A DNA stretch of 40,547 nucleotides from Klebsiella pneumoniae. Its GTDB lineage: Bacteria; Myxococcota_A; UBA796; GCA-2862545. The notes under the pieces are model-generated. The model did no database searches. It saw nothing but the letters and a program-made list of their open reading frames with translations, and was not told the origin of the DNA. The DNA is taken from assembly GCA_945882675.1 (NCBI GenBank), contig CAMCWU010000004.1, positions 1-40,547 on the forward strand, written 5' to 3'. Of this stretch, positions 28,059-30,607 are shown piece after piece (the first letter of the stretch is position 1; every line of letters begins with the position of its first letter). Position numbers and translations under genes: made by a program.

Positions 28059-29069
28059 ATGGAGACGCCACGCCTGATCCGCGCCATGCGCGGCGAGCCG
28101 GTCGACCGCACGCCGATCTGGTTCATGCGCCAGGCAGGCCGGTACCTGCCGGAGTACCGCGCGGTCCGGGAGCGCGTGTCGTTCCTCGATCTGTGCCGGA
28201 ACGCGGACCTCGGGCTCGAGGTGACGCTCCAGCCGGTGGACCGCTTCGGCCTGGACGGCGCGATCGTGTTCTCGGACATCCTCACGGTGGTGGAGGCGAT
28301 CGGACGCGAGGTCGTGTTCGATCCCGCGCCGAAGCTCCCGAACCCCGTGCGCACCCCCGCGGACGTCGCCAGCCTCAGGCGGCCGGACGTCGCGGACGCC
28401 CTGCCCGTCGCGCCGGAGGTCATCAAGCGCTGGAACAAGGTCCGGCCGGATGTGCCGATCCTCGGCTTCGCTGGCGCGCCTTTCACGCTCCTGTGCTACC
28501 TGGTGGAAGGCAAGGGCAGCAAGGACTGGGTGCACGTCAAGCGCATGCTGTACGAGCAGCCGCTGCTGGCCCGCACGCTGCTCGACCTGCTGGCGGACGT
28601 CGTCGGCGACTACCTGCAGCTCCAGGTGGACGCCGGGGCAGCGGGGGTCCAGATCTTCGATACGTGGGCTGGGACGCTCTCTCCGGCCGACTTCGAGCGC
28701 TGGGCGCTGCCCGCGAGCCAGCGCGCTCTCGCCCGCGTGAAGGGGGCGCCGCGGATCTTCTACACCAAGGACAGCTCGCCGTTCCTGCACCTGCTGAAGC
28801 AGACGGGGGCGGATCTCATCGGGCTCGACTGGCGCGTGGACATCGGCCGGGCGCGCCAGGTGCTCGGGGAGACGCCGGTCCAGGGGAATATGGACCCGGT
28901 CATGCTGTTCGCGCCGCCGGAAGACGTGAAGGCGGAGGTGCGGAGGATCCTGACGGCTGCCGGGCCGACGGGGCACGTGTTCAACCTCGGGCACGGGATC
29001 CTGCCGGAGACGCCGATCGCGGGCGTGCAGGCGATGGTTGACGCAGTCAAGGAGTTCCGTCGGCCCTGA
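28059..29069 (+). CDS. hemE: Uroporphyrinogen III decarboxylase
   Basis: A 336-residue cytoplasmic TIM-barrel enzyme that decarboxylates the four acetate side chains of uroporphyrinogen III to give coproporphyrinogen III, in haem synthesis. The signature RTPIWFMRQAGRYLPEYR near residue 18 holds the substrate-binding Arg residues. Further matches are DGAIVFSDILTV with the catalytic Asp, GFAGAPFTLLCYLVEG, FDTWAG and FNLGHGILPETP at the C-terminus. Length is close to the family's usual 340-355. ATG at 28059. It supplies haem for the oxidase genes 1.5 kb away but is not in their operon (opposite strand). Confidence 0.96.
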   Translation: METPRLIRAMRGEPVDRTPIWFMRQAGRYLPEYRAVRERVSFLDLCRNADLGLEVTLQPVDRFGLDGAIVFSDILTVVEAIGREVVFDPAPKLPNPVRTPADVASLRRPDVADALPVAPEVIKRWNKVRPDVPILGFAGAPFTLLCYLVEGKGSKDWVHVKRMLYEQPLLARTLLDLLADVVGDYLQLQVDAGAAGVQIFDTWAGTLSPADFERWALPASQRALARVKGAPRIFYTKDSSPFLHLLKQTGADLIGLDWRVDIGRARQVLGETPVQGNMDPVMLFAPPEDVKAEVRRILTAAGPTGHVFNLGHGILPETPIAGVQAMVDAVKEFRRP

Positions 29070-29323
29070 ATTCACCACGAAGACAGAAGTGCCGAAGGTC
29101 GCACGAAGAGCAACCCCTCGTCAGCGCGGGCGCGTTGCTGGTTCGGCCTGCTCTCTGAGTTGCTTCGCCGCGAGCGCCACCTGTCATGAGGCGCCTGGGC
29201 CCGGACAGATCGACCCGGAGATCCGGGGCACTCAAAAGAGGCGTCCTCGAAGGGGCGTCGCCGCAGGTCGTCAGGCAACGCGCTCTTCGTGCACCCTTCG
29301 ATCCTTCGGTCTTCGTGGTGAAT
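29070..29323. repeat. 254-bp segment bounded by 42-bp imperfect inverted repeats (MITE-like or shared terminator)
   Basis: The left arm at 29070-29111 and the right arm at 29282-29323 are reverse complements at 36 of 42 bases without gaps. The outer 15 bases (ATTCACCACGAAGAC) and inner 11 bases (GCACGAAGAGC) match exactly. Between them lie 170 bases without a convincing gene. The element sits exactly between the convergent stops of hemE (29069) and the dihaem peroxidase (29330), and both flanks carry CCCTGA/TCAGGG at those stops. Repeats of the CACCACGAAGAC type are known to occur dispersed in many genomes. A non-autonomous mobile element or a long bidirectional terminator are both possible; no direct target duplication is evident. 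Confidence 0.7.
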
Positions 29324-29329
29324 CGTTCT

Positions 29330-30607
29330 TCAGGGCGCCTTCAGCAGCTCCGCCGGCAGCTCATCCCCCGTGAGCGCCCCCAGGAACGCGATCACGTCCG
29401 CGCTCTCCTGCTCCGTGAAGTTCAACGCCTTCAACGTGAGCTCCCGGTGCCCGGCCCGCGGCTGCCCCGGCAGCTCGTTGTAGAACGCCAGCACCGACTC
29501 GAGCTCCGGCATGCTCCCGTTGTGCATATACGGCGCGGTCTCGGCCACATTCCGCAGCGAGGGCGTCTTGAACGCCGACTCGAAGTCCGCGAACGAGGGG
29601 TTGAGGTACTGCAGCTCCTCGCACTCGACCGTATCCGAGTATTTTCCTCGACAGTTGAACTCCGACGCGAGCAGCTTCATCGCGCCCATGGTCCGGCCCT
29701 GGTCGTAGCCGTTGCCGACCTCCGGCAGGCCGAGGTTGTGGAAGGCGCGGTCCGTGAGCTGGGGCCCGCTGTGGCAGCTCACACAGTTCCCGTCGCGCAG
29801 GAACAGGCGGAGGCCGCGGATCTCTGCGTCGTTCAGGGTGTCGCCGCCCTTCGCGTCCCCGGCCTGCAGGGCGTCCACGTACCGGTCGAACGGCGCGTCC
29901 TGCGCCACCAGCTTCCGCTCGTACGCCGCGATCGCCTTGCCCACGTTCGCGAACACCCGGTTCACGGCGTCCCGCGATTCGTCGGGGAGATCCTGCCACC
30001 CGTCGACGACTGCCGGATCGGTCGAGTCGGGCCGGCCGTGCTCCGGGAGCTCGAGGACCGGGAGCGCCCCGAAGATCGCCTCGTACGCTGGCCGATGGCG
30101 ACCGGTCACCTGCCGGGCCACGAACACGCGGTCCGACCCCATCTCTTCGGGGTTCTCGATCGGCCCCAGCGCCTGCATCCACAGCGAGTCCGCCCGCCCG
30201 TCCCAGTACAGGAACGGCGCGTACTGGCTCCCGACGATGCTGGGCGTGTGCCGGGCTGCCGTGCCGACGCCGCGCGAGAGCGGGAGCCCGTCCGCGAAGC
30301 CCTTGTCCGGACGGTGGCAGGTCGCGCACGAGATCCCGTGCGGCGAGAGCCCGGGATCGAAGAACAACGCCTGGCCGAACGCGGCCGCGGCCGGGTCGTC
30401 CGCGACTGAGTTGCTCGGGTCCGGCCGGGGCGTGGGGTCGAGGCGCATGCCGGCGAGCCGCTCCATCTCTGCGGGGCTCCACGCGGCGTCCGGCGTCACC
30501 GGCGCATCTTCGCATCCGCCCAGGATCAGGAGCGTCAGCGCTGCTCGTAGATGAACGACGTGCTGTCCGGCCCGCGCGGCCCGACGACGTCCACGGTGAT
30601 GGTCCAT
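29330..30607 (-). CDS. Dihaem cytochrome c peroxidase (MauG/CCP family), exported
   Basis: Two c-type haem sites, CATCH (about residue 94) and CVSCH (about 275), in the spacing of bacterial dihaem peroxidases. The family signatures are GQALFFDPGLSPHGISCATC, YWDGRADSLWMQALGPI and FKTPSLRNVAETAPYMHNGS. The mature protein should be periplasmic and use haem electrons to reduce peroxide or oxidise a partner. A lipoprotein-like signal precedes (LTLLILGGC). The start is uncertain: ATG at 30607 gives 425 residues and a basic n-region but overlaps the upstream gene by 73 bp; a CTG at 30538, overlapping that gene's TGA, fits the spacing style but leaves almost no signal. Last gene of the oxidase operon. 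Confidence 0.88.
   Translation of the reverse strand: MDHHRGRRRAARAGQHVVHLRAALTLLILGGCEDAPVTPDAAWSPAEMERLAGMRLDPTPRPDPSNSVADDPAAAAFGQALFFDPGLSPHGISCATCHRPDKGFADGLPLSRGVGTAARHTPSIVGSQYAPFLYWDGRADSLWMQALGPIENPEEMGSDRVFVARQVTGRHRPAYEAIFGALPVLELPEHGRPDSTDPAVVDGWQDLPDESRDAVNRVFANVGKAIAAYERKLVAQDAPFDRYVDALQAGDAKGGDTLNDAEIRGLRLFLRDGNCVSCHSGPQLTDRAFHNLGLPEVGNGYDQGRTMGAMKLLASEFNCRGKYSDTVECEELQYLNPSFADFESAFKTPSLRNVAETAPYMHNGSMPELESVLAFYNELPGQPRAGHRELTLKALNFTEQESADVIAFLGALTGDELPAELLKAP

Follow-up and report, generated by a model that had tools for sequence, protein, structure and literature searches.

A short inverted-repeat element between hemE and a peroxidase gene, and its probable relation to mobile elements carrying GxxExxY nuclease genes

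We analyzed a stretch of 40,547 nucleotides, referred to as a whole as the window, in which two convergent genes are separated by a 254-bp element consisting of two arms and an interior. The features of the locus are as follows.

28062 to 29069, plus strand: hemE (start approximate), the upstream neighbor of the element
29061 to 29069, plus strand: outer flank CGGCCCTGA, the end of hemE including its stop codon
29070 to 29111, plus strand: left arm, an inward-reading array of short units ending in GAAG (ATTCACCACGAAGACAGAAGTGCCGAAGGTCGCACGAAGAGC)
29112 to 29281, no strand: interior, non-coding, 170 bp
29151 to 29203, minus strand: core, common to elements on contigs C197, C358, and C172 (C172 being a tie with shuffles), where it is oriented alike with respect to the arms; boundaries drawn by eye
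29282 to 29323, minus strand: right arm, the left arm inverted at 36 of 42 bases
29330 to 30515, minus strand: dihaem cytochrome c peroxidase-like gene (start approximate), convergent; named from the initial annotation and visible CxxCH motifs

The initial annotation of this DNA had described imperfect inverted arms at the two ends of the hemE-peroxidase intergenic region, enclosing a gene-free segment, and that description was confirmed. A repeat search recovered arms of 42 nt each, complementary at 36/42 positions (86%) and separated by 170 nt. When we compared 42-mer pairs lying within 400 nt of each other across the whole window, this pair scored highest (36, with the runner-up at 30); in five simulated versions of the window drawn from a first-order Markov model, the best scores were 27 to 30. 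The left arm starts immediately after the hemE stop codon (TGA, 29067 to 29069), and the right arm ends 6 bases short of the stop codon of the convergent peroxidase ORF (29330 to 29332). We recognized no gene between the arms (29112 to 29281), and the element lies between these two protein genes, not inside a 16S or 23S rRNA gene. Two exact copies of the sequence CACCACGAAGAC occur in the window, both within the arms. As a separate observation, hemE and the convergent peroxidase gene (window positions 29064 to 29069 and 29330 to 29335) and a gene on contig C358 (locus L017, near 1209) all end in CCC TGA at the element edge, a pattern that would arise if the stop codon were provided or targeted by the end of the element.

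The element folds strongly, with z scores of -6.6 on the given strand and -7.2 on the complement, and a hairpin ending both transcripts was the second alternative offered by the initial annotation. Under this explanation, the arms are selected at the RNA level as a bidirectional transcript-end or mRNA-stability element and have spread only as a useful regulatory cassette. Arms are also seldom located between divergent genes (4 of 81, compared to 63 of 328 background gaps; P = 0.0012), as expected if they are placed behind genes; the loci in this comparison are mostly from Methylobacter relatives and are not independent, and 41 of 122 arms were unclassed for gene orientation (16 inside called ORFs, 24 at locus edges, and 1 far). 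Avoidance of promoters, however, is equally expected of a tolerated insertion, and the scarcity in divergent regions fits selection against promoter insertion, together with the convergent setting in the window. Arms elsewhere are also found inside operons and around a nuclease gene, and a scan for terminator-like sites (a short G+C-rich stem plus a T run) returned none at 28900 to 29500, which leaves little support for the proposed transcript end. The single match in an Rfam search of the region was a chance match under threshold. The long hairpin could shape RNA 3' ends; selection at the RNA level strikes us as an improbable explanation of the arms themselves.

The assembly that contains the window (3.71 Mb, 377 contigs, 80.8% complete) holds further copies. 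A BLAST search with the 254-bp element found arms on C13, C35, C147, C172, C181, C197, C216, and C358 in addition to the window's own contig, C4, and a search with the arm pattern added C37 and C203, with no matches for the reversed control; at least 10 further contigs in this genome therefore bear arms. An absence of additional copies, which the initial annotation had named as counting against its reading, was not observed. The suggestion that the outer CACCACGAAGAC is a dispersed repeat was accordingly correct, in that it is part of a repeat recurring elsewhere in the genome. The predicted spacing of about 170 bp was not: spacing is not fixed, and paired elements in the genome measure 88, 120, 254 (window), 266, 273, 307, and 364 bp in total. 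For five of them (window, C147, C172, C197, and C358), the core can be aligned in one orientation relative to the arms, and most same-orientation pairs among these five have interior scores above those of all shuffles; the comparison of the window with C147 was not significant, and that with C172 tied with shuffles. The elements on C181 (120 bp) and C35 (88 bp) consist of arms nearly alone. Elements on C181, C197, and C358 have CGGCCCTG[AC], which resembles the outer flank CGGCCCTGA, on the outer side of the left arm. On contig C212 (locus L022, about 1500 to 1720), we observed four tandem copies of a core of about 49 bp, present once in the window element, within weaker arms.

Each arm consists of short units (CACGAAG) arrayed with a period of about 8 to 9. 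The exact 21-mer TTCACCACGAAGACACGAAGG occurs in at least 118 stretches carrying at least nine phylum-level names, where our arithmetic, assuming equal base frequencies, gives a chance expectation of about 0.1 in 257 Gb. Carriers among the matches listed include Gamma-, Alpha-, and Betaproteobacteria, Syntrophobacter, Geotalea, Eremiobacterota, Chloroflexi, Planctomycetota, Verrucomicrobia, Acidobacteria, Aminicenantes, and SAR324, and for 62 of the 122 21-mer matches listed, an inverted partner lies no more than 700 bp downstream. Closer to the window, the distribution is patchy: the arm is present in 4 of 38 relatives, the window's genome included. Two genomes (G002 and G024) have window-like paired arms 180 to 350 bp apart, whose interiors are mostly unrelated to the window's core.

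Considering 282 genomes of the window's phylum, we detected the arm pattern ACCACRRAGRCACRRAG in 11. The GxxExxY nuclease profile PF13366 matched 8 of these 11 arm-positive genomes and 30 of 271 arm-negative ones (P = 6.6e-6), for 38 genomes in total, in a cross-table whose units are genomes, including related ones such as G024 and G033 of one genus, and whose pattern covers the CACRRAG arm type only. Of 25 arm positions listed for four genomes, 8 have a PF13366 match no more than 400 bp away, some of these matches being gene fragments.

The RAYT (Y1 tyrosine) transposase profile PF01797 gave no such association, with matches in 5 of 11 arm-positive and 124 of 271 arm-negative genomes (P = 0.62). 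Movement by RAYT of a REP/REPIN-type or terminal-inverted-repeat element deserves consideration because the element is palindromic, extragenic, and dispersed, and because long terminal inverted repeats can flank RAYT genes, according to PMC3733652. REPs and REPINs resemble the present family further in being patchy and in comprising non-autonomous copies beside a rarer coding form. The window arms, however, are longer and by inspection have no GTAG or CGTC tag. RAYT loci themselves had flanking repeats at 5 of 19 loci tested, none with units of the CACGAAG type, and a single RAYT ORF is found among the 118 listed arm loci, more than 3 kb from an arm. Profile searches of the window's genome (80.8% complete) gave 0 matches for PF01797 and likewise 0 for PF13366. 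We rejected RAYT as the mover for want of association in the genome, co-occurrence, and locus tests, and regard it as very unlikely.

The gene found between arms belongs to the GxxExxY family (TIGR04256/PF13366, by profile matches), a small PD-(D/E)XK family. At the 118 listed arm loci, a GxxExxY ORF is present in four and lies between the arms in all four, and 26 of 30 arm-bearing genomes have a GxxExxY gene. Approaching from the gene, we found inverted repeats scoring above all 200 shuffles around 19 of 30 GxxExxY genes from arm-bearing genomes, with none detected for the other 11. In an unselected sample of the phylum, 13 of 29 testable genes had such repeats and 16 had none detected; 1 of 30 PF13366 loci in this sample, and 5 of 30 PF05635 loci in the corresponding test of that family, could not be included. 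Among random ORFs of comparable size from these loci, 9 of 400 were flanked by repeats, a background that is if anything overstated, as two or three of the nine resemble real iteron elements. Near-identical GxxExxY genes in G024 and G033 (loci L338 and L349), with no arms of their own detected, have a gene-less arm pair of 180 to 260 bp adjoining them.

The units vary among elements (CACGAAG, CACGGAG, CACAAAG, CGCCAAG, CACGAAA, CACGGAC, and CGGAT) and agree within an element, and the best match of an arm was its partner arm in 26 of 31 elements. The nuclease gene of Methylobacter oryzae (G040) has arms with the unit CACGAAA, which differ from a CACGAAG arm elsewhere in the same genome. In a Mantel-type test on 28 elements, arm similarity was correlated with nuclease similarity (rho 0.39 over all pairs; 0.36 when only pairs from different phyla were compared), and in both cases 0 of 5,000 permutations reached the observed rho; two low-complexity, distant loci (L280 and L282) were dropped from this set, and elements without a protein in the set (L221) are also absent. 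The nuclease protein tree, drawn without L061, L076, and L146 (duplicates or unlabelled), mixes the phyla while keeping some clustering, with 16 label changes against a minimum of 8. We rejected plasmids as the vehicle, with the nuclease in only 8 of 72,556 plasmid records; among viral contigs, it occurs at one locus, itself flanked by arms.

Covariation of arm unit and nuclease is left unexplained by selection on an RNA hairpin, and it also bears on whether the nuclease has any part in movement. Nuclease gene and arms might both be passengers on segments moved by another transposase or by host recombination, with GxxExxY as cargo, for example for defence. Arms with the gene are indeed far outnumbered by arms lacking it, and the layout is not peculiar to the nuclease: PF05635, a different small family, lies inside arrays of other units at 18 of 25 genes. 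The covariation across phyla, however, together with the nuclease-specific co-occurrence with arms, points to a direct relation, and in the gene listing of arm loci we noticed no recurrent gene other than GxxExxY between these arms. We think it rather unlikely that both are passengers.

The catalytic residues D70, E80, and K82 are invariant in 43 of 43 nucleases, and the D-x9-ExK pattern is kept. A PDB sequence search with the nuclease returned no match at an E value of 10 or below. The structure model is confident (pLDDT 96), with fold neighbors of the PD-(D/E)XK class, the best being 4ic1 (Z 9.1), which we take to be a Cas4. Other neighbors include restriction enzymes and Holliday-junction resolvases, which indicate the general PD-(D/E)XK class and no particular function. 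Given the conserved residues, the confident model, and the fold neighbors, GxxExxY is likely an active PD-(D/E)XK nuclease. A lone PD-(D/E)XK domain is not a known transposase.

Related genomes that differ at one site capture the element in several states. In Methylobacter (loci L286 to L312), an intergenic site flanked by genes for an ABC ATPase and a permease was readable in 17 of 23 genomes. It contains arms and a GxxExxY gene in three species (G040, G322, and G323), is empty (2 to 42 bp) in G325, G327, G334, G337, and G338, and holds a gene-less hairpin with CACGAAG arms in G039. G328 and G332 have arm-like sequence in which we did not see a clear pair, G331 and G333 have hairpins with a CGGAT-type unit, and G330, G324, G339, and G329 have other sequence. 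These filled, empty, and variant states show that the element is gained and lost as a whole and that the site, an insertion hotspot, accepts more than one type. We could read no target-site duplication there, and the arms are not the exact ends. For the window copy, hemE was found in 30 of 38 relatives, none with the peroxidase gene within the hemE-flanking DNA examined, and these relatives thus offered no empty site.

The window element shares with MITEs (miniature inverted-repeat elements of bacteria) a short, non-coding, intergenic sequence with terminal inverted repeats and several copies. Two hallmarks of MITEs, a short non-coding segment bounded by terminal inverted repeats and the occurrence of dispersed copies, are both present in it. 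As for a third, ends in common with an autonomous, transposase-encoding element, the arms are shared with GxxExxY elements of other genomes and with none in the window's genome. In contrast to MITEs, the protein associated with this family is a small PD-(D/E)XK nuclease, the arms are arrays of short units, and we could resolve no target-site duplication. We know of no transposase associated with these arm ends.

We conclude that the 254-bp segment is probably a non-autonomous, MITE-like derivative of a nuclease-associated family of mobile elements with inverted iteron arrays. The first alternative of the initial annotation, a small non-autonomous mobile element, is thus supported by the copies in the genome, the arms in many phyla, the enclosed nuclease gene, and the filled and empty Methylobacter sites. 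Full elements would consist of a GxxExxY nuclease gene between inverted arrays of short units (iterons). The nuclease may bind both arms through their unit arrays, possibly when these are extruded as a cruciform, and may then cut; host recombination would then repair the cut, copying the element and so allowing it to spread. Gene-less copies such as that in the window would be moved in trans or left after loss of the gene, and the position between two gene ends would be a place that tolerates insertion. The nuclease as driver of movement is our inference from these patterns.

More tentatively, such elements may constitute an undescribed autonomous class present in at least nine phyla, in which a single-domain PD-(D/E)XK nuclease recognizes and cuts flanking iteron arrays, moving itself and trailing gene-less hairpins, with S23p elements as a parallel second class; we hold this to be possible, falling somewhat short of probable. 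GxxExxY is widely annotated without a function, and a place in iteron-armed mobile hairpins would give it a testable role, would account for a repeat that is abundant but unnamed in the intergenic regions of environmental bacteria, and would make the family a candidate mobile element without a classical transposase.

Our literature searches returned no description of the repeat sequence (judged by title for 40 of 211 papers matching short strings; one other match concerned fish eDNA) and no function for GxxExxY or its profile accessions; PMC8934634 uses GxxExxY as a label only. Among the matches listed on PDDEXK proteins with terminal repeats, on S23p and intervening sequences, and on related mobile elements (including PMC11637426), we saw no description of the layout. 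The recurrence of these arms around a nuclease gene in unrelated bacteria suggests a widespread kind of mobile element that has so far gone undescribed. Multicopy families found in many intergenic regions of Geobacter bemidjiensis are palindromic or made of short direct repeats and were judged non-randomly inserted (PMC2996986); the passages on them name no protein partner, and those families may overlap with ours.

A parallel in layout is offered by the 23S rRNA intervening sequences, in which a small gene for S23p, a four-helix bundle (PF05635), sits inside an inverted-repeat stem, as described in PMC4990558. The window element differs in lying between protein genes, in having no gene, and in its unit, CACGAAG, compared to the mostly 7-bp units of PF05635 elements. 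In arm-bearing genomes, PF05635 (23S_rRNA_IVP) genes (loci L226 to L255) were enclosed by inverted arrays of such units, including GTGAGGC, GTTCTAG, and TATCAGC, at 18 of 25 tested loci. These four-helix-bundle genes represent a second small-gene family of the same architecture outside rRNA. Among the control ORFs, we also came across one that is not GxxExxY (L137, 3474 to 3822, minus strand), flanked by CACGAAG-type arms in outward orientation.
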